A stretch of DNA of 64,000 bases from Paraburkholderia sp. Tr-20389 (GTDB taxonomy: Bacteria; Pseudomonadota; Gammaproteobacteria; Burkholderiales; Burkholderiaceae): assembly GCF_017104565.1 (NCBI RefSeq), contig NZ_JAAGPD010000003.1, positions 1-64,000 on the forward strand, given 5' to 3'. How positions within the stretch are numbered: position 1 is the first letter of the stretch; the number at the start of each line of letters is the position of its first letter. Below the pieces are notes generated by a model. The model was given only the letters and a program-made list of their open reading frames with translations. It searched no databases and was not told the DNA's origin. Below, piece after piece: positions 16,721 to 46,114 of the stretch. A program made the translations under genes and the position numbers.

Positions 16721-19700
16721 ATGAACAAAACCTATCAATCCGTGTGGAACGAAGCGGCAGGCACCTACGTCGCCGCGGCGGAAAACATTCGCGCACACGG
16801 CAAGAAGTCGAGCCGCTGTGCGCTCAACATTGCATCGGCGGCGCTTGCATCGGCCGTCACGTTCGGCACATACGGCGCGGCCTGGGCGGCCGATCCCGCA
16901 CTGACGCCGAAGCCGACTTCGAGCGCGGCGAACCTCACGACGCCCACCCCGACCAGCGACTTCTTCTGCTTCCTCTTCTGGTGCGGAGGCGGCGGCAATA
17001 CGACGAACATCACGTACAACGGCGTCAATGCGCAGGATGCGTACGCGTACACCTACGACCGCAACAACCTGAAGTACTTCCATGTCGACTCGAAGCTCGG
17101 CGAATCGTCGGCGAGCGGTGGTGGCGGCGATGCAATCGCGATCGGCGGCGCGGCGAAGGCGAACGGCGTCAGCAAGGACGGCTCGACCTATGGCTGGCCC
17201 GGCTCGACGGCGGGCAACGGACCGATCGCGATCGGCGGCGAAGCGCTCGCGCAGGGTGCGGCCAATCTCGCCGTCGGCATCGATGCAAAGGCTGACGGCC
17301 TGTATCACGCCGTCGCGGTAGGCGGCAACGCGCAGGCGGCGGATATCTACACCGTCGCCGTCGGCGGACACGCGCTCGCATCCGCGCAGACTTCGACGGC
17401 GCTCGGCTCGCATGCCGCCGCGCTCGCGAACGGCTCGGTCGCACTCGGCGAAAGCTCGGTCGCGACGCGCAGCAATACGGTGTCGGTGGGCAAGCAAGGC
17501 GCCGAGCGGCAGATCGTCAACGTCGCGGCGGGATCGGCAGGCACGGATGCCGTCAACGTGAACCAGTTGAATGCCGCCATCGCGGGTGCCGGCGGCAACG
17601 GCGGCGGAGGGGGCGGCGGCGGGGGTGGTGGCGGCAACGTCGTCCTGCCCACGGACCTGAAATATTTCCACGCGGCGTCGACGCTCGCCGATGCATCGGC
17701 GGCGGGCCAGGAAACGGTCGCGTTGGGCGGCAATGCGACGGCGCTCGCCAGCGGCTCGGTTGCGCTCGGTTCCCGTTCGGTCGCCGACCGCGTGAACACG
17801 GTTTCGGTAGGCAACGATCTCACCCGCCGCCAGATCACACACCTGGCAGCCGGCACGGCGGACAACGACGCCGTCAACGTCGCGCAGTTGAACACCACCG
17901 TGCAGAACGCGCTGACGGGCGGCACGCTGCCGAATCTCGTCGTCTACGACTCGGTGTCGCACGACGCGCTGACGCTGGGCGGCATCGGCGCGACGCATCC
18001 CGTGAAGCTGATGAACGTCGCCGGCGGCGCGATCACGCAAACCAGCACCGACGCGATCAACGGCTCGCAAATGTTCCAGCTCGCGCAGGCGACTCAGCAA
18101 GGTTTTAGCGACGTGGGCAGCGGCATGAGCGCGCTGGCACAGAGCACGGCGGCGTCGTTCGGCGGAGACGCGAGTGCCAACACCGCCGACGGCTCGATCA
18201 CGCCGCCCAGCTACAAGATCGGCGGCCAGACCTATCACAACGTCGGGCAAGCGCTCGACGCGCTAGCGGCGGGCGGCGGCGGCGGCGGTGGCGGCTCCGC
18301 CAGCAGCGTCAACTACGATACGGCCGCGCACAACAGCGTGACGTTCGGCAGCACGCTCGCGCATGCCCCCGTCGCGCTGACGAACATCGCGAACGGCGCG
18401 ATCAACGCGAGCAGCACGGACGCCGTCACCGGCAAGCAGATCTACGCGACGACCAGCAGCGTGGCGAGCGCGATCGGCGCGGGCGCGTCGGTGAAGGTAG
18501 ACGGCACGCTCGCGGCGCCCGCCTATGTGATCTCCGGCGTCACCTATAACGACATGGGCAGCGCGATCAACGCGATCGGCGCGGTCGGTCAGGACGTGCA
18601 AGTGACGGCGAAGTACGTGAAGGTGTCGTCGACGGCTTCGCAGGCGCTGTCCAACGGTGTCGAGACCACCGCCATCGGCGGCGCGGCGTATGCATCGGGC
18701 GATCGCGCGGTCGCGATCGGCGCGGGCGCACGTGCGCAATACGACGACTCGGTGGCGATCGGCTCGAATGCGCAGGCGTATGAATCCGGTACGGTGTCGG
18801 TGGGCCGCAAAGGCGGCGAGAAGCGCGTGACCAACGTCGCGGACGGCGTCAAGGCAACGGACGCCGCGACCGTCGGCCAACTGAGCGCGCTGCAAAAATC
18901 GCTGTCGACGCAGACGCAGCCCACGCTGCGCTCGGCCCTGCTCACCGAGACCTCGGTGCTCGACTACATCAAGGTCAGCCCAAACGTGATGACGGGCTCG
19001 CCCACCGAGGTATCGAGCGATCTGAACGCGATGGCAATCGGACCTTCAGCGAACGCGTCAGGCGTGAATGCCGTCGCCGTGGGTGCGGGCTCGGGTGCCG
19101 CGCGCGCCGGATCGACGGCCGTCGGCTCGCGTGCCGCCGCGCTCGCGCTCAACTCGACCGTGATCGGCCAGGGCGCTTCGACGGGTTTCAATGCGCAGAA
19201 CGGCGTGTCGATCGGCTACATGGCGGATGCCGAAGGCGCCAACGCGATGGGCTTCGGCTCGTTCTCGATTGCGGGCGGCGCGGGTTCGGTGGCGATCGGC
19301 TATAACGCGCTCGTGTACACCGTCGCCAGCAACGCGATGGCGTTCGGCACGGCGGCGACGGCGACGGCCGCGAACACCATCGCGCTGGGCAGCGGTTCGA
19401 TCGCGGATCGTGCGAACTCGATCTCTGTCGGCAATGCGGCCACGCAGCGCCAGGTCGTCAACGTTGCAGCGGGCACGGCGAATACCGACGCCGTCAACGT
19501 CGCGCAACTCAGGGGCGTGACGTCGGCACTCGGCGGCGGCGCGAGCGTCGGCGCGGACGGCTTGCTGGTGAATCCTTCATACGTGCTCGGCGGCACGACC
19601 TATAACGACGTCGGCGCGGCGCTCACCGCGGCTGCGGGCGCAGGCTCGCCCGATGCCGTGAAATACGACACGAGCGCACACAACAAGGTGACGCTGGGCG

Positions 19701-22700
19701 GCACGGGCGCAGCGTCGCCGGTGAAGCTGGCGAACGTCGCGGCGGGCAGCGCGAACACCGATGCGGTGAACGTGAAGCAACTGAAGGATCTCGGCGCGAA
19801 CATCGACGCCAGCGGCGCGGTCACGAGCGCTTTCGTCGCGTACGACGACGCGTCGAACGCGAGCGTCTCGCTGAAGGGCGCTGGCGGCACGAAGATCCGG
19901 AACGTCGCGGCGGGCAGCCTGAGCGCGTCGAGCCTCGATGCCGTCAATGGATCGCAGTTGTATCAGACGAACCAGAACGTCGCGAACGTCATCGCCGGCC
20001 TGAGCAACGCGAGCAACACGCTCAACAACATGAACGACGGCGGTGGCCTGAAGTATTTCCACGCGAACTCGTCGCTGATCGACTCGCAGGCGGGAGCGGA
20101 ATCGGTCGCGATCGGCGGCAATGCGCAGGCGACGGCATCGAATGCCATTGCGCTCGGCAGCAATTCACGCGTCACGGCGAACAATGCCGTTGCGATCGGC
20201 GCCAACGCGCTTGCGGATCGCGCGAACAGCGTCTCCGTCGGCGCGAGCGGCGCGGAGCGGCAAATCGTCAACGTCGCGGCGGGCACGCAGAACACCGATG
20301 CCGTAAACCTCAAGCAGTTGAAGGATCTCGGCGCGAACGTCGACACCAACGGCAACCTGACGAACGCCTTCGTCGCCTACGACGATGCGTCGAAGACACG
20401 CGTGACGCTCGGAGGCTCGGGTGCTGCGAACGCGGTGAAGATGACGAACGTCGCCGCCGGTACTGCAAACAGCGACGCAGTGAACCTCAAGCAGCTGAAA
20501 GACCTCGGCGGGTCGTTCGATACGAACGGCAACGTGGCGAACGCGTTCGTGGCGTATGACGATGCGACGTCGAAGGGCACGGTCACGTTGAAGGGCGCGA
20601 GCGGCACGAAGATCGCCAATCTGTCCGCAGGCGCGCTGAACGCGGCGAGCAAGGACGCCGTCAACGGCGCGCAGCTGTACCAGACGAACCAGAATGTCGC
20701 GAACGTCGGCGCAAACGTAGTCAACGTATCGAACACGGTCAACAACATCATGACCGGCGGCGGCATCAGGTATTTCCACACGACTTCGCAACTCGACGAC
20801 TCCAGCGCCACTGGCAGCGACTCGATCGCCATCGGCGGCGCCGCGCAGGCAGCGGACGCGAATGCAATCGCGCTCGGCGCCAACGCGCACGCCAACGCGT
20901 CGAACGCCATCGCGCTCGGCAGCGGATCGGTCGCCGACCGCGCGAACACGCTGTCCGTTGGAGCAAGCGGCGCGGAACGCCAGATCGTCAACGTCGCGGC
21001 GGGCACGCAGAACACGGACGCCGTCAACGTGACGCAGCTCAAGGGCGTGACGAGCGCGCTTGGCGGCGGCGCAAGCGTCGGCAGCGACGGTGCGGTCGCG
21101 AAGCCGACCTATGTGATCGGCGGAACGACGTACAACGATGTCGGCGCCGCCATCGACGCCGCCGCACACAGCGGCGGCGATGTGACCGATGCCGTCAGAT
21201 ACGACACCGCCGCGCACAACAAGGTGACGCTCGGCGGCGTGGGTGCTGCTTCACCCGTCAAGCTGTCGAACGTCGCGGCGGGCAGTGCGAACACCGATGC
21301 CGTGAACCTCAAGCAGCTGAAAGATCTCGGTGCAACATTCGACGCGAGCGGCAACGCGACGGGCGCGTTCGTCGCGTATGACGACGCGCAGAAGCGCACA
21401 GTCACGCTCAAGGGCGCGGGCGGCACGAAGCTGACGAATCTGCTGGCAGGCGCGCTGAATGCCAGCAGCACAGACGCCGTCAACGGTTCGCAGCTGTACC
21501 AGACGAATCAGGACGTAGCGAATCTCTCGGGCTCGCTCAACAACATGGGCGACACGCTCAACAATCTGAACGACGGCGGCGGCCTGAAGTATTTCCACGC
21601 GAGTTCGGTACTCGCCGATTCACAGGCGACGGGCGCGAATTCGGTGGCGATCGGCGGCAATGCGCAGGCGTCGACGGACGATGCGATCGCGGTCGGCAGC
21701 AACGCGCGTTCGACAGCTTCCAGTGCGGTGGCGCTCGGCACGGGTTCGCTCGCGGATCGCGCGAATACGGTCTCTGTCGGCGCAGGTGGTGCGGAACGTC
21801 AGATCGTCAACGTCGCGGCAGGCACGCAGAACACGGACGCCGTGAATCTCAAGCAGCTGAAAGACCTGGGCGCTTCGTTCGATAACAACGGCAACGTGTC
21901 GAGCGCATTCGTCACGTACGACAGCGCGTCGAAGAACAAGGTCACATTCGGCGGCGTGGGCGCGACGACGGCCGTGAAGCTCTCGAACGTCGCGGCGGGC
22001 AGTTCGAACACCGATGCCGTCAACGTGAAGCAACTGAAAGACCTCGGTGCTTCGTTCGATAACAACGGCAACGTGTCGAGCGCATTCGTCGCGTATGACG
22101 ACGCATCGTCGAAGGGCACAGTCACGTTGAGGGGCGCGAGCGGCACGAAGATCACCAATCTCGCGACAGGCGCGCTGAACGCCAACAGCATGGACGCCGT
22201 CAACGGCTCGCAGCTGTACCAGACAAACCAGAACGTCGCGAACGTCGCCGGCAATGTGGCGAATCTCGCAGGCAACGTGAGCAACATGAGCGACACGCTC
22301 AACAATCTCGCGACAGGCGGCGGCTTGAAGTATTTCCACGCGACTTCGGATCTCGCCGATTCGCAGGCGACGGGCGCGAATTCGGTGGCGATCGGCGGCA
22401 ATGCGCAGGCGTCGATGGACAATGCGATCGCGATCGGCAGTAACGCACATACCACAGCGGTCGGTTCAGTCGCGCTCGGTACGGGCTCGATCGCGGATCG
22501 CGCGAATACGGTGTCTGTCGGTGCAGGTGGTGCGGAACGGCAGATCGTGAACGTCGCGGCCGGCACGCAAAACACGGATGCCGTCAACCTCAAGCAGCTA
22601 AAAGACCTGGGTGCTTCGTTCGATAACAACGGCAACGTGTCGAGCGCATTCGTCGCGTACGACAGCGCGTCGAAAAACAAGGTCACATTCGGCGGCGTGG

Positions 22701-25700
22701 GCGCGACGACGGCCGTGAAGCTGTCGAACGTCGCGGCGGGCAGCGCGAACACCGATGCCGTCAACGTGAAGCAACTGAAAGACCTCGGCGCTACGTTCGA
22801 TACGAGTGGCAACGCGACGAGCGCATTTGTCGCCTACGACGACGCATCGTCGAAAGCCACGGTCACGTTGAGAGGTGCGAGCGGCACGAAGATCACCAAT
22901 CTCGCGACAGGCGCGCTGAACGCCAACAGCATGGACGCCGTCAACGGCTCGCAGCTGTACCAGACGAACCAGAACGTCGCGAACGTCGGCGCAAATGTCG
23001 GCAACGTATCGAACACGATCAACAACATCATGCTCGGCGGCGGCATCCGGTATTTCCATGCGAATTCGGCGCACGACGATTCGCTCGCAAGCGGCGAAGA
23101 CGCGATCGCGATCGGCGGCGAAGCCCAGGCAAACGATACGGGTGCCGTGGCGATCGGCGCACATGCGCAGGCCACGCAGGCCGGTTCGATGGCGCTCGGC
23201 AACAACGCGCAGGCAAGCGCGTCGAACTCGGTGGCGCTCGGTGCGAACGCGTCGACGAATGCGGTGTTGACGATGCCCGCCTATCAACCCGGCACGACGG
23301 CGCTGGCGGGCACGACACCCGTCGGCGAAGTCTCCGTCGGATCGACAGGCAACGAGCGCCGTGTGACGAACGTCGCGGCAGGGGCGGCGGAAACCGATGC
23401 CGTCAACGTGAGCCAGCTCAGGTCGGCCGTCGATGCATCGTCCAGCGGCGTACTCGCGGCCGCCGTGCTATATGACGACGCCACGCAGCGCAACAGCGTG
23501 ACGCTGGGCGGCACGACGGTCACTTCGCCCGTCGCGCTGAAGAACGTCGCGGCGGGGTCGATCGCCTCGAACAGCCGCGACGCGGTCAACGGCTCGCAGC
23601 TCTTCAATGTCGCGAGTTCGACGGCGGCGGTGCTGGGCGGCGGTGCGGCCGTCGGCAGCGATGGGAAGATCGGCGCGCCGACTTATGTGATCGGTGAGAA
23701 GTCGTATAGCGATGTGGGCAATGCGCTGACGGCAGTGGATAAGACGATCCGCTATTTCAAGATCCGCCCGCCCGAGAACACCACCGACCAGGCGCTGCCC
23801 GTCGCAACGGGCGAGGTTGCGCTTGCACTCGGAGCAGGCGCCGCGAGCAACGGCAATTACGCGATGTCCATTGGGCCTGGCGCACGCGCGACCGGCGTAG
23901 GCACCGTCGCGGTCGGTCACAACGCGGTGGCGAACTTCGACGGCTCGACGGCCATTGGCGAAGGGTCGCAGACCTACGAGGATAACGTCATTTCCGTGGG
24001 GGCGAAGGGAGCACTGAGACGCATCACAAAACTCGCCGACGGCGTCAACTCGGACGACGCCGTCACGATGAAGCAATTAGCCGAACTGCAAGATCAGATA
24101 CCGCACTCGGGTAGCGGCCTTCGCTCGACGTTGCTCGGCGCGCCGAATCCGCTGGATTACATCGCCGTCAGTGCGACCACCACGGCGGCCAATGCGACGT
24201 TGACGTCGAACGACGCGAATGCGTTGGCGATCGGTCCCGGCGCAAGCTCGACTTCGGTCAATACCACCAGCGTCGGCACGCTCGCGACGGCGGGCGGCGC
24301 CAAGGCCACGGCCGTCGGCGCGGGCGCCGGGGCCGCGCGCGAAGGTTCGACGGCGGTCGGTCAGGGGACGGCCGCGCTGGCAGTCAATGCGACGGTCATC
24401 GGCACGGGCGCGTCGACGGGCTTCAACGCGACGAACGGCGTCGCGCTCGGCTATATGGCTACCGCAGAGGCAGACGGCTCGATGGGCTTCGGCTCGAACG
24501 CGGACGCCAACGGCATCGGCTCGATCGCCCTCGGCAACGGGTCGACGACCTTCACGACCGCCTCGAACGCCGTCGCCCTCGGCGCCAACTCGATCGCCTC
24601 GCGTGCAAACACGATCTCCGTCGGCAGCGAGTCATTTCAGCGGCAGATCATCAACGTCGCAGCAGGCACGTCGACGACCGACGCCGTCAACGTCTTGCAA
24701 CTCAAGGGTGTGGCGAATCTGCTCGGCGGCGGCGCGGACCTCGCCAGCGACGGCTCGGTGAAACAGCCGGTCTATACGATCAGCGGGCGCACCTACAACG
24801 ACGTCGGCACGGCGCTTGCCGCTGCGGCTGCGTCGGGAGGCGGCGCTTCGCCCGATGCCGTCTCGTACGACACGTCCGCGCACGATCGCGTCACCTTGGG
24901 CGGCGCGGGCGCATCCGCACCCGTCAAACTCACGAACGTCGCGCCTGCTCTGCTCGTGTCCGGCGGCACGGATGCCGTGAACGGCGGCCAGCTCTTCAAC
25001 ACGGCCAACACGGTCGCGGGCGCGCTCGGCAGCGGCGCCGCAGTCGGCGCGGACGGCAAGGTCAAGGCGCCCGCCTATGCAATCGGCGGATCGACCTACA
25101 GCAGCGTCGGCGGCGCGCTGGCCGCCGTCGATTCCGCACTCGCGACGGGCGGCAATCCGAACGGGCTCGTGTACGACTCGTCGGCGCGCAACAAGGTCAC
25201 GCTCGGCGGCGCGGGTGCAAGCACGCCCGTCACGCTGACGAACGTCGCCGACGCGAAGCTCGACAGCGACGCCGTCAACCTGAAGCAGCTGAAGGCAGCG
25301 GGCATTGCCGTCGATCCGTCGACGGGCGTCGTCACCAACGCCCTCGTCGCGTACGACGGCGCGTCGAAATCGAGTGTCACGTTCAACGCGGGCGGCTCGC
25401 CGACGCAGCTGAAGAACGTCGCCGATGCCGTCGATGCGTTCGACGCCGTGAACCTGCGGCAGATGCAGAGCTACGTGTCGACGCAGATCACGAACTTCAC
25501 GCCGGCCGTCGTCGTCGACGATCTGCCCGTGGGCACGGCGACGGGCCAGGACGCCATCGCGATCGGCACCGGCGCGAACGCGTCAGGGAACTCGGCGATC
25601 GCGATCGGTGCGCGCACATCGACGACGGGCGATCAGTCCGTCGCGCTCGGCGCGGGCGCATCGGCTCCATCTGCGAATGCCGTCGCGCTCGGCGCGAACT

Positions 25701-38220: not shown

Positions 38221-38322
38221 AGATTTAGGTTCCATTGTTAGGGATTGGAACCGGTGTTTTAACGCAGTGCGTGACTTGAGTTGTCAACGTTTGTGAAGGG
38301 CTTTGCGGTGTTGCTGGGAGCC

Positions 38323-38394
38323 GGTTTGCCTGTTGGTGTGCTGTTGTCGCTGGCATCCGGTTTGCCTGTTGCTGTGCTGTTGTCGCTGGCATCC
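38323..38394. repeat. two tandem 36-bp repeats
   Basis: Two adjacent copies of a 36-base unit (38323–38358 and 38359–38394) that differ at one position, starting GGTTTGCCTG and ending GGCATCC. They run into the left end of the long inverted repeat. Confidence 0.8.
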
Positions 38395-39036
38395 GCGTTT
38401 TGTCTTCGGTTTGCTAGCGTTGCCCCTGTGCGGGGCGGCACTTACTTTCTTTGCCGCCGCAAAGAAAGTAAGCAAAGAAAGCGGGCTCACCCCGCCAGCC
38501 CGTGTTCTTGCCTGCGGGCCCCCACCGGGTCCCGCACTCCACACGGCAACACTTTGTTTTGCGCCCGTTGCCAGCGCCTCGAACAGGCGCACAACCCGCT
38601 CCAGTCACCCGCAGCCAGCCAGCGGCAGCGACTCGTCTACGCCGCCCAGGTGGCAAACTGTGTGTAGGTGGTCGCGCCATATACGTTCGCGCTTCTACGA
38701 CACCGATCCCGCTTTTCGGTCCGGAGTGGTGCACTTTCGTCGCGATGGCCTACACACAGTTTGCCACCTGGGCGGCCGTGGACGTCTGGTAACGCAGTCC
38801 GTGACGCGGGAGTGTGAAGCGGGTGATGCGTGAGTGAGCACGCTGGCAACGGGCGCGAACAAGCACGTTGCCGCGTGAAGTGTAAGAACTGTTGGGGGCC
38901 CGCAGGCAAGAACAAGGATTGGCGGTGTGAGCGGCTTTCTTTTGCCTACTTTTCTTTGCCGCTGCAAAGAAAAGTAGGTGCCGCCCCGCACAGGGGCAAC
39001 GCATGAACGACCAACACCAAAACGCGGATGCCAGCG
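38384..39036. repeat. long imperfect inverted repeat, about 650 bp
   Basis: Two arms of about 285 bases (about 38384–38668 and 38749–39036) are reverse complements of each other over their length with scattered changes. The innermost 28 bases (38641–38668 against 38749–38776) are perfect, around an 80-base centre. Each arm contains a smaller palindrome built on ACTTTCTTTGC / GCAAAGAAAGT. The outer ends pair as CGCTGGCATCCGCGTTTT against its complement at 39019–39036. Several short frames run through it, but all look like by-products of the repeat. No transposase is present. It fills the gap between the GlsB-like gene and the polyamine transporter, and probably belongs to a dispersed family. 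Confidence 0.8.
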
Positions 39037-41185: not shown

Positions 41186-41290
41186 ACTATTCTCCTGCCT
41201 CTCATGCAGCCATGCATGCCGTTGCTTCGTACAGCGGCGATGCGGCTTTCTCCTTCCGCCAGGAAAGCCGCATCGTTCAACGCGAAACGC

Positions 41291-42343: not shown

Positions 42344-42401
42344 GATGGTTCCTCTATGGTGTGATGGACTGCTTACGACGTTGACGTTGTTGTGTTTCTG
42401 T

Positions 42402-43493
42402 TCACGCGAATACGCGCAGATGTTCCGGCGCGAACTCGAGCGCGATGGGCACGCCCGGTGCGAAGCCGTCGAGCGCGTCCGTGCCGAGCGGCACCTTGAC
42501 GAAGCACTCGTCCTGTTGCGGCAGACCGCAGCGCATGCGCACGTGGTCGCCGAAATAGATGAGGCCGCGCGCCTCGCCCGCCAGCGCATTCGCGCCGGGC
42601 TTCGACGCACCCGCCGCGAGTTTCATGCGCTCAGGCCGGATACATGCGATGCCTTGCGCACCCGCCTGCGCGCCACCGATATTGCGCCCGACGAGCCGCG
42701 TGCCGTCGATCAGGTGAAACTCGCAGTAGTCGCCGTCGACATTCGCGATCGTGCCGCGCAGCCGGTTGCTGTCGCCGATGAAGTTCGCGACGAACTCGTT
42801 GCACGGCGATTCGTACAGGCTGTCGACGGTATCGAGCTGCTGCACGATGCCCTTGTCGAACACGGCGACGCGGTCGGACATGGTCAGCGCCTCGCCCTGA
42901 TCGTGCGTGACGTAGACGAACGTCACGCCGAGCTTTTCGTGCAGCGACTTGAGTTCGTATTGCATGTGCTCGCGCAACTGTTTGTCGAGTGCGCCGAGCG
43001 GCTCGTCCATCAACACGAGCTTGGGTTCGAACACCAGCGCACGCGCCAGCGCGATACGCTGCTGCTGGCCGCCGGACAGCTGTGCGGGATAACGCTTCGC
43101 GAAGCCTTCCATGCGGACCATCTTCAGCGCGTTGTTGACCTTGTGCGCGCGTTCGTCGGCGGGCAGCTTGCGCACCGTCAGCGGATACGCGACGTTCTGC
43201 TCGACGGTGAGATGCGGGAACAGTGCGTAGTTCTGGAACACCATGCCGATGTTGCGCTTGTGCGGCGGCACGTTGTTGAGCAGTTGGCCGTCGAGCCAGA
43301 TTTCGCCGCCCGTCGGGAATTCGAAGCCCGCGAGCATCATCAGGCAGGTGGTCTTGCCCGAGCCCGACGGCCCGAGCAGCGTGAGGAACTCGCCTTGATA
43401 GATGTCGAGATCGAGTTGCTTGACGACGAGCGTTTCGCCGTCATAGGTCTTGCGCACACCCCGAAAGCTGACGATTACGTCTTCGGTCTTCAT
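42402..43493 (-). CDS. potA: polyamine-type ABC transporter ATP-binding protein (PotA-like)
   Basis: 363 residues: Walker A GPSGSGKTT, signature LSGGQQQRIALARAL, Walker B LVLMDEPLGALD and switch His in YVTHDQGEAL. A C-terminal TOBE-type regulatory domain follows (FIGDSNRLRGTIANVDGDYCEF and IACIRPERMKLA). It is the first gene of the importer operon. The 49-bp hairpin repeats begin 13 bases upstream of its start codon and would lie in its 5' leader. Confidence 0.92.
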   Translation of the reverse strand: MKTEDVIVSFRGVRKTYDGETLVVKQLDLDIYQGEFLTLLGPSGSGKTTCLMMLAGFEFPTGGEIWLDGQLLNNVPPHKRNIGMVFQNYALFPHLTVEQNVAYPLTVRKLPADERAHKVNNALKMVRMEGFAKRYPAQLSGGQQQRIALARALVFEPKLVLMDEPLGALDKQLREHMQYELKSLHEKLGVTFVYVTHDQGEALTMSDRVAVFDKGIVQQLDTVDSLYESPCNEFVANFIGDSNRLRGTIANVDGDYCEFHLIDGTRLVGRNIGGAQAGAQGIACIRPERMKLAAGASKPGANALAGEARGLIYFGDHVRMRCGLPQQDECFVKVPLGTDALDGFAPGVPIALEFAPEHLRVFA

Positions 43494-43506
43494 CGTGTCG
43501 GTCTCC

Positions 43507-43751
43507 TGTCGACCCGAGTTAGCGCTTTAGCGCTTACTCGGGTCCCATGCAAAGCTGTCGACCCGAGTTAGCGCTTTAGCGCTTACTCGGGTCCCATGCA
43601 AAGCTGTCGGCCGCAGTTGGCGCTTTAGCGCTTACTGCGGCCCCATGCAAAGCTGTCGGCCCGAGTTGGCGCTTTAGCGCTTACTTGGGTCCCATGCAAA
43701 GCTGTCGGCCGCAGTTAGCGCTTTAGCGCGAATTGCGGCCCCATGCAAAGC
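43507..43751. repeat. five tandem 49-bp hairpin repeats upstream of the polyamine operon
   Basis: Five units start at 43507, 43556, 43605, 43654 and 43703, with a partial sixth of six bases. Each has the shape CCCGAGT–(G/A)GCGC–TTTA–GCGC–ACTCGGG, a long stem with a TTTA loop, and ends CCCATGCAAAGC. In units 3 and 5 the outer arms are CCGCAGT with ACTGCGG or ATTGCGG, mostly compensated changes that keep the pairing. On the minus strand every unit carries ATG-GGN-CCN. Units 1–4 then stop (GPE, GPE, GPQ, GPK); unit 5 reads MGPQFALKR and stops. Unit spacing is exactly 49 bases with no unique spacers, so it is not a CRISPR array. Confidence 0.9.
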
Positions 43752-43801
43752 TGTCGAAGCTCGCGTCAATTCCACAATATCTACGGGTTTCTACGCAGAT
43801 A

Positions 43802-43901
43802 TGGTTCCACCCGTTTTGAAGAATCGCGTCGATTGCGTGATCCACTATAGCCCGTTACGGTTCTACAATAGGGAACCATTTCATAATTCCGGATAGAACC
43901 A
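43802..43901. promoter_or_regulatory. clustered TGGTTCYA-type motifs, candidate MocR operators
   Basis: TGGTTCCA at 43802–43809 and CGGTTCTA at 43858–43865 on the plus strand; the same motif reversed at 43871–43879 (GGGAACCAT) and 43894–43901 (TAGAACCA). The middle two form GGTTC-N9-GAACC. All lie within 100 bases of the MocR start and between it and the polyamine operon. Repeated half-sites in both orientations suit a dimeric MocR regulator. Confidence 0.55.
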
Positions 43902-43902
43902 C

Positions 43903-45471
43903 TTGGACCACGTCATCCTGTCGGACTGGCTCGCCGCGCGGCTTGACCGGACGGCGGCCGAACCCGTCTACCGTCAAGTGCTAGAACTGATGCAGCAGGC
44001 CATCCTGACGGGCCAACTGCTGCCGGGCGCGAAGCTGCCCAGCTCGCGCGTGCTGGCGTCGGACCTCGGCATCGCGCGCAATACCGTGCTGCACGTGTAC
44101 GACCAGCTCACGGCCGAAGGCTATGTGATCTCGACCACGGGCAGCGGCACCTATGTCGCCGACACGCGGCCGGACACGGCCGCCGTCAACGCACGCAAGG
44201 TGTCATCGGCGGCGAGTGGCTCCATTGGCGCGGTCGGTACGCTTGCGAGCGCGGCCGGCAGTGCGTCGTCTGCTGCACCGGCGCAAAGCGGCCTGTCGAC
44301 GCGCGGCGCGCGGCTCATTCGACAGGCTGGCGTGTCGGCCAAACAGTGGGGCGCATTCATGCCGGGCGTGCCGGATGTCGCCGAGTTTCCGGCGCGCACG
44401 TGGAGCCGCCTGCAAGCCAAGCTCTGGAAGGAAGCGAATCCCGATCTGCTGACCTATGCGCCCGGCGGCGGCTATCGTCCGCTGCGGCGCGCGTTGTCGG
44501 ACTATCTGCGGGTCGCGCGTTCGGTCAAGTGCACGCCGGACCAGATCATCATCACGACGGGCATTCACCAGTCGATCGATCTCGCCGTGCGTCTGCTGAC
44601 GGATGTCGGCGACCGCGCGTGGGTCGAAGAGCCGTGTTATTGGGGCGCGCGCAGCGTGTTGCAATCGTCGGGGCTGACGCTCGTGCCCGTGCCCGTCGAC
44701 GACGAAGGGCTCAATCCGCGCGAATCCGACTTGCAGTCGCCGCCGCGCATCGCACTCGTGACGCCGTCGCATCAGTATCCGCTCGGCATGGTGATGAGCC
44801 TCGCGCGCCGCCGCACGCTGCTCGAATACGCGCGCCAGCACGGCACGTGGATCATCGAGGACGACTACGACAGCGAGTTCCGCTATGGCAGCCGGCCGCT
44901 CGCGTCGCTGCAGGGCCTCGACGACGCGGGCCAGGTGATCTACGTCGGCAGTCTGGGGAAGATGCTGTTTCCGGGCTTGCGGATCGGCTACATGATCGCG
45001 CCGGAGCATCTGGTCGATACGTTCCGCACGGGCGTCGCCGAGCTGTATCGCGAAGGACAGCTAATGCAGCAGGCGGTGCTGACGGAATTCATCATGGACG
45101 GCTATCTGACCTCGCACGTGCGGCGCATGCGGGCGCTGTACGGCGAGCGCCGCCAGATCCTGATCGACGCGATCACCGCGCGCTTCGGCGACGCGCTGCC
45201 CGTGATGGGCGACGAAGCGGGGCTGCATCTGGTGCTCGGTCTGCCCGACCACGCGAACGACCGCGAGGTGACGGCGGCTTCCTACGATGCGGGCGTGATC
45301 GTGCGTCCGCTCGCGTCGTACTACAACAGCGAAACACCGGAGCGCCGCGGCCTGCTGCTCGGCTATGCATGCGTGCCGAACGAACGCATCGGGCCGTCGT
45401 TCGACACGCTCGCCCGCGTGATCGAGCGCACTGCATTGAATACGGCGGTCGTGCCGACGCGGGCGGCTTGA
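43903..45471 (+). CDS. MocR/GntR-type regulator with aminotransferase-like domain
   Basis: 522 residues from a TTG at 43903; an in-frame stop lies three codons upstream and the next ATG (43990) would cut into the DNA-binding domain. The GntR winged helix is at about 15–85 (PVYRQVLELMQQAILTGQLLPGAKLPSSRVLASDLGIARNTVLHVYDQLTAEGYV). A Ser/Ala linker leads to a type I aminotransferase-like domain with IIEDDYDSEFRYGSRPL and the PLP Lys in GSLGKMLFPGLRIGYM. MocR proteins use a PLP-bound ligand to control amine or vitamin B6 genes. It is divergent from the polyamine importer, its probable target. Confidence 0.9.
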   Translation: MDHVILSDWLAARLDRTAAEPVYRQVLELMQQAILTGQLLPGAKLPSSRVLASDLGIARNTVLHVYDQLTAEGYVISTTGSGTYVADTRPDTAAVNARKVSSAASGSIGAVGTLASAAGSASSAAPAQSGLSTRGARLIRQAGVSAKQWGAFMPGVPDVAEFPARTWSRLQAKLWKEANPDLLTYAPGGGYRPLRRALSDYLRVARSVKCTPDQIIITTGIHQSIDLAVRLLTDVGDRAWVEEPCYWGARSVLQSSGLTLVPVPVDDEGLNPRESDLQSPPRIALVTPSHQYPLGMVMSLARRRTLLEYARQHGTWIIEDDYDSEFRYGSRPLASLQGLDDAGQVIYVGSLGKMLFPGLRIGYMIAPEHLVDTFRTGVAELYREGQLMQQAVLTEFIMDGYLTSHVRRMRALYGERRQILIDAITARFGDALPVMGDEAGLHLVLGLPDHANDREVTAASYDAGVIVRPLASYYNSETPERRGLLLGYACVPNERIGPSFDTLARVIERTALNTAVVPTRAA

Positions 45472-45487
45472 CGAGGCAAGTGGCGCG

Positions 45488-46114
45488 TTACCCGTGCGCC
45501 GTCAGATGCATCTGACGATGCGCGATCCGCTCCACCTCGGGCTTGTCGACGCGCTCGATCGCCACCTTCGTCACGCCCGCGCGATGCATCCCGAGCTCCG
45601 ACGCAGCCAGATACGACAGATCGATCACGCGGCCGCGCGCGTAGGGCCCGCGGTCGTTGATGCGCACCACCACGGTTCTCGCATTCGCCAGCGACGTCAC
45701 GCGCACATACGAACCAAGCGGCAAGGTGCGGTGCGCGGCCGTCATCGCGTACATGTCGTAGTGCTCGCCGTTCGCGGTGCGGCGTCCATGAAAGCCGCGT
45801 CCGTACCAGGACGCGAGCCCCAGTTGCCGGAAGCGCGATGCGTGCCCTTTCACGCTCGCCGCGTGGGCGATGTGCGCAGCCCGATTGGCCTGATGTCTCG
45901 GGTCAGCGTGTGTATCCGTATGTGAAGCAGTATGTGAAGCGGCGTGCGGATCGACGGTCGCGCCGTGCTGCGCATTCTTCGCCCGTTGACGCGGCCGGGG
46001 ATCAGCCGGCTTGTGTTTCGCGCCAGCCGCCGATGCCGCTGCAGGCAACACACTCGCGAGCAGCAGGAAGGACACGGAAGCTCCGAGGCGGCGCAGCAAG
46101 GGTTTCTTTTTCAA
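45488..46114 (-). CDS. RlpA-like septal lytic transglycosylase-type protein
   Basis: 208 residues. Signal peptide about 1–29 ([15 protein letters not shown]). A His/Ala-rich low-complexity stretch (about 35–90) precedes the double-psi beta-barrel: [45 protein letters not shown], with [25 protein letters not shown]. No SPOR domain follows, so septal targeting may differ from RlpA proper. It is convergent with the MocR gene, 17 bases apart. Confidence 0.88.

Follow-up and report, generated by a model that had tools for sequence, protein, structure and literature searches.

We find that the repeat array in front of potA, a polyamine importer gene of Paraburkholderia sp. Tr-20389, is one member of a dispersed, mobile-looking family of REP-like palindromes of the Burkholderiaceae. 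The palindrome itself is of a known, REP-like kind; what sets it apart is its unusual usual position, against the Shine-Dalgarno sequence (SD) of a gene. The array lies in what we call the window, the whole 64,000-nt stretch analysed (positions 1 to 64,000 of contig NZ_JAAGPD010000003.1, forward strand).

Positions 43507-43751 of the window consist of five head-to-tail units of exactly 49 bp each, with no gaps in the period, as the initial annotation had proposed from inspection of the sequence. Repeat finding confirms this organization (TRF: 5.1 copies, score 371; period 98 scores 413), and the minus strand across 43480-43760 is predicted to fold at -148.1 kcal/mol, with a z-score of -9.4 relative to shuffled sequences. 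Each unit reads NGTCG-ACCCGAGT-T-AGCGC-TTTA-GCGC-T-T-ACTCGGGT-CCCATGCAAAGC and is built from a TGTCG tag, a 9-bp stem, a T.T mismatch, an inner 5-bp stem, a TTTA loop, a CCC tail and a linker; the fuller tail of the family, accompanied by the same TGTCG tag, is CCCATGC. The earlier description of the units as lying "without spacers" is loose, the hairpins being 41-nt cores joined by a constant linker, ATGCAAAGC. The unit adjoining the potA SD (unit 1, 43506..43546, plus strand) has the TGTCG tag, the 9+5 bp hairpin, the TTTA loop and the CCC tail, and matches our R2 model at 69.0 bits (E 5.9e-14). It is followed on the same strand by unit 2 (43555..43595, 69.0 bits), whose hairpin is identical to that of unit 1, by unit 3 (43604..43644, 64.0 bits) and unit 4 (43653..43693, 62.6 bits), and by unit 5 (43702..43742, 54.6 bits), the most distant from the SD and the lowest match. 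Arms of the type CCGCAGT/ACTGCGG occur in units 3 and 5 and arms of the type CCCGAGT/ACTCGGG in the remaining units, with some arm mismatches in units 4 and 5. A probable degenerate sixth unit, CTGTCGAAGCTCGCGTCAATTCC, can be read at 43751..43773 (plus strand), where the R2 model gives no match.

The array abuts the SD of potA, 14 nt upstream of the start codon: the SD, AGGAGAC, occupies 43501..43507 on the minus strand, and its complement, GTCTCCT, runs directly into the GTCG of unit 1. potA itself (42402..43493, minus strand) encodes the ATP-binding subunit of a polyamine ABC importer (NCBIfam TIGR01187, 363.1 bits against a cut-off of 355.6), and a divergent gene for a MocR/PdxR-like regulator (43903..45471, plus strand; NCBIfam NF052282, 416.7 bits, cut-off 320) stands on the far side of the array. 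An Rfam scan of 42400-45500 returned no match above gathering score, and a search of a phage collection with the element likewise gave no match, leaving a phage origin unsupported. The intergenic region between potA and the regulator gene also contains, at 43790-43900, a strongly conserved block (AAGTGGTTCTATCC...AATGGTTCC...GTAGAACC) that recurs with small changes in the relatives compared at potA, the most diverged version being that of L062; this block is a possible regulator binding site. Elsewhere in the window, a 36-bp tandem repeat of 2.5 copies lies downstream of the pot operon at 38309-38400, and several tandem repeats of 21 to 27 bp at 19497-24625 could possibly belong to one long repetitive surface-protein gene.

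Among 24 distinct units from the strain's own genome, 97.1% of cells pair, two-sided changes occur at 7 of 13 pairs, and no slid version of the pairing comes near that value, indicating that the palindrome is maintained; the joint change of outer arms recorded in the initial annotation thus holds within the array, as its two arm types, and across the genome. (The alignment left out L005, which overlaps L006, and three odd-length units were left out of alignment A1.) A further argument of that annotation, that the plus strand keeps G·U pairs, stands for units 4 and 5, which fold at -23.5 and -25.3 kcal/mol on the plus strand and at -16.9 and -21.9 on the minus strand, but does not generalize to the family, because 120 distinct units from 100 regions contain 28 G.T cells against 46 A.C cells (a count that kept 228 of 276 aligned units, with at most three gaps each). 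A strand-specific RNA reading drawn from such pairs is therefore unsupported family-wide. Small ATG-GGN-CCN frames are present on the minus strand, as had been noted, with unit 5 reading MGPQFALKR; most units read MGPE or MGSE, 217 of 276 units having the ATG and 200 of those 217 stopping at codon 5. We attribute this frame to the conservation of tail and stem, and by eye no SD serves the frame itself. In the predicted fold of the potA transcript, only a few nucleotides separate the end of the first hairpin from the SD, which is largely unpaired save for a weak 2-bp helix. With each copy the mRNA would acquire a stable hairpin lying 3 to 5 nt 5' of the SD, and this could plausibly alter, to a modest degree, how stable the leader is or how well the gene is translated, at potA as elsewhere.

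Searches with the unit place the family well beyond this locus. In the 9.0-Mb genome of the strain (129 contigs), 37 matches to the unit have E values of 0.0011 or less, and nine clusters were found among the 12 loci given to nhmmer; three weak R2 matches (L343, L344 and L345) had no nhmmer match and fall outside the nine. Of 145 genomes of the genus, 144 contain a match with an E value of 0.001 or less, at most 45 candidates having been scored per genome, and in a sample of 200 Burkholderiaceae genomes the 1e-4 threshold is passed in 81 genomes and in 8 of 25 genera. An order-level sample of 200 genomes, in which few members of the family were represented and strict filters lose weak matches, gave the strain's own genome as the sole match at 1e-6. 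Single units of about 46-49 nt stand at many loci, mostly in one orientation; the only opposite-strand cluster among 103 is itself a mirror image. In genome G017, none of 51 listed clusters, mirror images counted, lies inside a called gene (43 clusters are left once mirrors are removed, with no score floor). Twenty records matched in a search of plasmid records, and three of the 11 examined are annotated near the match (L158, L264 and L268). This dispersed palindrome family with covarying arms supports the reading as a structural DNA repeat, which the initial annotation had listed among several possible roles.

The position of these units is not arbitrary with respect to genes. We examined 100 regions of about 4 kb drawn from the best genus-scan matches, which hold 103 clusters, and called a cluster anchored when CTCC, the complement of the SD core, lay within 10 nt 5' of the GTCG of its first unit. 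By this measure 77 clusters are anchored and 26 are not, as compared with CTCC at 203 of 10,300 random noncoding positions in the same regions (about 2%, 9-nt window). The junction is close to exact: CTCC and GTCG are separated by 1 nt in 47 clusters and by 3 nt in 28, together 75 of the 77, and T precedes GTCG in every one of the 101 first units where GTCG is present. On the TGTCG side, the adjacent gene is oriented opposite to the unit in 91 clusters and like it in 10, and has no call in two; in 67 of 103 both neighboring genes run opposite to the unit, which thus sits between co-directional genes. Gene starts in this analysis come from a home-made codon-usage caller, trained on five genes of the window, that misses or misplaces some starts.

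Since the 100 regions had been chosen by score, the count was repeated on all regions of G017 with matches at E up to 0.01. Here 38 of 43 clusters are anchored and 32 lie at a called SD; among the five unanchored clusters, two have a weaker SD-like sequence at a distance of 15-17 nt from a start, and another comes after a half unit. Anchoring is likewise seen in 12 of 17 clusters from other genera, in seven of the nine own-genome clusters (one very weak, L346 at 11 bits; L002 and L004 are unanchored) and in 6 of 11 plasmid-record loci, the unanchored ones being L158, L159, L262, L264 and L268, which include all three annotated loci; L158 has TCTCCT about 20 nt from its first unit. SD anchoring is thus the rule, with exceptions, and the searched genomes, with units mostly at SDs, do not bear out the prospect, entertained in the initial annotation as grounds for discarding its readings, that the unit would turn up only at random intergenic sites. 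Genes at unit-bearing SDs, named from their protein starts, include lpxD, glgC, a thiolase, a LysR-type gene and an ABC transporter, and some (thiolase, lpxD and a glycine-betaine-type ABC gene) are preceded by the element in several species. In another genus of the family, L324 and L325 hold single units away from CTCC that have a common 5' flank, CCCACGCTC...CGTTC, which perhaps represents a second type of site.

Comparison of filled and empty sites in the pot operon gives a direction to these events. The potA SD of the window is filled, as are those of Paraburkholderia sp. SG-MS1 (L060) and, with a more decayed element, P. franconis (L048): two of the 14 relatives compared at potA are filled, and the other 12 lack the unit and all have GGAGAC. 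Because the relatives with empty sites already have the SD, the SD predates the element. At the permease SD of the same operon the pattern differs, with the element present in 7 of 24 relatives (L051, L053, L055, L057, L059, L077 and L110) and the site empty in the other 17 and in the window, where the corresponding intercistronic gap lies at 41186..41290 (minus strand). Different species have therefore received the element at different SDs of one operon. The filled and empty sites compared, the empty ones being diverged, show no evident target duplication.

To what extent do these positions reflect the target sequence, and to what extent retention? Among CTCC-type SDs, 70 of 77 with an element read TCTCC, as opposed to 55 of 124 without one (Fisher 5e-12); as the base 5' of CTCC lies outside the element and TCTCC is nevertheless enriched, the element prefers a particular SD sequence. 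Sequence preference does not account for everything. Noncoding TCTCCT occurs 28 times at SDs and 24 times elsewhere, with 51 more occurrences in coding sequence, whereas 59 anchored insertions lie at called SDs, 17 beside a start-like codon with no called gene, and one beside neither. The resulting excess at SDs over noncoding TCTCCT (Fisher 0.008, counting all 18 as non-SD) is greater than the motif alone predicts, which argues for an additional influence, either selection or a second feature of the target. Placement thus seems to depend both on sequence targeting and on retention or targeting of some kind linked to the SD.

Units also occur within units. By a loose test, a unit lies between two half units that pair at 7 or more of 8 positions at 21 of 100 loci, a count to be read with the family-wide likeness of arms in mind: four of the 21 have identical inner and outer arms and are uninformative, and four more are ambiguous. 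By a stricter test, 13 of 100 loci have outer arms that show better mutual pairing than pairing with the inner arms, and 12 of these loci span 84-88 nt rather than the roughly 36 nt of a plain unit. From their arm sequences we take these 13 loci to be true nesting, in which one unit would have entered the loop of another; L194 appears to hold three levels, the outermost of them ambiguous. Nested insertions come after AGC, not at a pre-existing C|T. Arrays, in turn, show a consistent polarity: in those of three or more units the SD-proximal unit outscores the last in 41 of 48 (Wilcoxon 6.5e-6), as it does in 18 of 20 arrays in G017 and in 6 of 6 in other genera, and the array at potA follows the same trend (69, 69, 64, 62.6 and 54.6 bits outward from the SD). 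Arrays decay away from the SD, and the SD end is the best preserved. Tandem periods of 46, 49 and 54 occur among arrays, together with 25-nt spacings that arise from half units.

No mobilizing enzyme was identified, the strain's own genome and G017 showing only RAYT-like proteins that lack the HUH motif. At the HUH position, where HVH is the expected text of a RAYT protein, both RAYT-like proteins of the own genome and the single one of G017 read AVQ, and no unit lies near either of the former; one of the two (L009 1459-2163, G000:C12), encoded upstream of a gltB-like gene, also matches Y1_Tnp. RAYT-like matches, none above the curated cut-off, occur in 142 of 143 genus genomes, and in the 31 loci read the HUH position is A/S-V-Q in every case and no unit lies nearby. 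Across the family, RAYT-like proteins are found in 19 of 25 genera, as opposed to 8 of 25 for the units. A role of the resident RAYT-like proteins as mobilizer is consequently unsupported, given the missing motif, the absence of nearby units and the wider spread among genera; because these proteins are present in nearly every genus genome and all 31 loci read lack the HUH motif, their sequences suggest that they were domesticated for a function other than cutting. An IS200-like protein that does have HVH is encoded in one genome (G091) of nine checked (L329, G091:C1:785026-785391).

REPs are usually described near the 3' ends of open reading frames, as inverted dimers and tied to RAYT proteins, and placement at SDs is unusual for REP-like repeats. 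The GTAG-type REP/BIME elements of E. coli and Pseudomonas resemble the present family as short imperfect palindromes with an internal mismatch, a 5' unpaired tag and dispersed extragenic copies, and the REP size range of 20-40 bp with many dispersed extragenic copies has its counterpart here in a 41-nt hairpin core and 43 G017 clusters. They differ in their tag (GTAG or GTRG, as opposed to TGTCG), in forming head-to-head or tail-to-tail dimers rather than head-to-tail and nested arrays, in lying at the 3' end of the previous gene rather than at the SD of the next, and in having a cognate intact RAYT flanked by repeats, in contrast to HUH-less RAYT-like proteins with no units near. Insertion sequences of the IS200/IS605 family (IS608, ISDra2) insert immediately 3' of a fixed, short target, which they do not duplicate. 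They share with our units strand-specific insertion, a single orientation and a fixed target 5' of the left hairpin (compare TCTCC|T, in most clusters but not all), but encode an intact HUH transposase, whereas the unit here is about 49 nt, carries no transposase and has its target in SD complements. The Rfam family naRNA4 (RF02564), which derives from an E. coli REP, gives a weak cross-match at 43609-43691 (32.4 bits, E 0.003; gathering score 59.5) that probably reflects likeness of a two-hairpin shape only. C. taiwanensis, a species that figures in a survey of CGTC-tagged REPs, is presumably a Cupriavidus and hence of the same family as our strain. That survey names C. taiwanensis, and its main text does not contain the word Burkholderia (Di Nocera et al. 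2013, PMC3733652). CGTC-tagged REPs, including dRS3 of Neisseria, are the nearest to the present family in tag and tail: their tags, which read CGTC, TGTC or CCTC, include the TGTC variant, and they have an unpaired CCA tail and lack a dedicated transposase (PMC3733652), and most units here have the TGTC tag and a CCCA tail. Their stems have 8-9 bp with AT at the first two positions and a loop of 4-5, in contrast to 9+5 bp with a mismatch and G-C and A-T as first pairs, and they lie near the 3' ends of open reading frames with negligible head-to-tail dimers, in contrast to the SD-sited, head-to-tail units described here (PMC3733652). A literature search that took in few subscription journals retrieved no description of the family as an SD-anchored repeat; a term look-up in PMC6006769 returned no mention of Burkholderia, and the portion of a B. 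cenocepacia transcription-start paper that was available does not mention such a repeat (PMC4603805).

Taken together, we consider it somewhat better than an even prospect that the family is a REP-like, non-autonomous palindromic element whose single units are placed at strong SD complements, probably by a single-strand process acting beside them. Single units would be cut and joined as single strands, with strand specificity, at a C|T step, much as TnpAREP acts in vitro; that enzyme cuts single-stranded REP at C|T on either the 5' or the 3' side of the hairpin, which may be compared with the C|TGTCG junction here, and strand specificity and guide sequences are features of IS200/IS605 (PMC8266576). 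The element would target strong SDs, on the strand complementary to them (TCTCC|T), as well as the loops of units already in place, and arrays would then grow by tandem duplication. Copies just upstream of an SD would leave both the SD and the gene intact, which may partly explain their survival. A different account, which we regard as unlikely though still deserving of weight, holds that the unit is a functional mRNA hairpin that protects or tunes the downstream cistron, is spread by ordinary recombination and is kept by selection. The excess of SD-bound copies over the motif-only prediction, the preservation of the SD-proximal unit, the recurrence before the same genes in several species, the frequent position between co-directional genes, and a predicted hairpin that leaves the SD mostly unpaired would all suit such a function. 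By contrast, sequence-specific placement is indicated by junctions that are near-exact (1 or 3 nt) and by the strong preference for TCTCC, and the genes served are unrelated. The mRNA-strand G.U pairs expected of an RNA under selection are in the majority over all distinct units (46 versus 28) but not among well-paired ones (7 versus 15, p 0.13), a comparison that decides little either way.

The other readings fare worse. That these are neutral palindromes, arising by host recombination or hairpin-templated slippage with quasi-palindrome correction and found at SDs because they are purged elsewhere, would fit periods of 46, 49 and 54 and 25-nt half-unit spacings that resemble slippage products, as well as G.T/A.C counts without a consistent strand preference, as expected without strand-specific selection; we nonetheless judge it improbable, since neither the one-orientation TCTCC junction nor the nests with distinct inner and outer arms are explained by it. 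The initial annotation had also raised a repeated leader peptide for polyamine-sensitive translation or a repeated small RNA, a proposal to which the location in the potA leader and the ATG-led four-codon frames of most units lend some appeal. We give it very little credence: the frame has no visible SD, its third codon changes along with the stem, such units also precede many unrelated genes, and seven relatives have the unit at the permease SD of the pot operon and not at that of potA, such that polyamine specificity of the array is unsupported. An orphan CRISPR array is the least credible of all. In one survey a 25-nt P. terrae core of this kind appears among the CRISPR repeats, its cas genes entered as 'NI', and Table 4 of that survey reportedly assigns orphan CRISPRs to about 90% of the Paraburkholderia species covered (PMC5968390). 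Because the linkers here are constant (ATGCAAAGC) rather than variable spacers, we exclude a CRISPR at this locus; the units are, moreover, single, nested and located at SDs.

Under the REP-like element that we favor, the family as a whole might, at a tentative estimate falling just short of an even chance, be described as an SD-homing mobile palindrome family that inserts single units in one orientation, at a C|T step and in resident loops, through a novel strand-transfer activity, leaving up to dozens of ribosome-binding sites per genome with a hairpin or a polar array. Arrays of this type may also account for some of the orphan CRISPRs reported for Paraburkholderia, given that at least the 25-nt repeat of P. 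terrae has its core in common with our palindrome (PMC5968390). A genus-wide family that is sited at ribosome-binding sites, nests within itself and has no obvious active transposase would widen the roles ascribed to REP-like elements, and it would make two matters testable: the choice of sites by non-autonomous palindromes, and a possible retuning of translation, at individual genes, by transposed hairpins.
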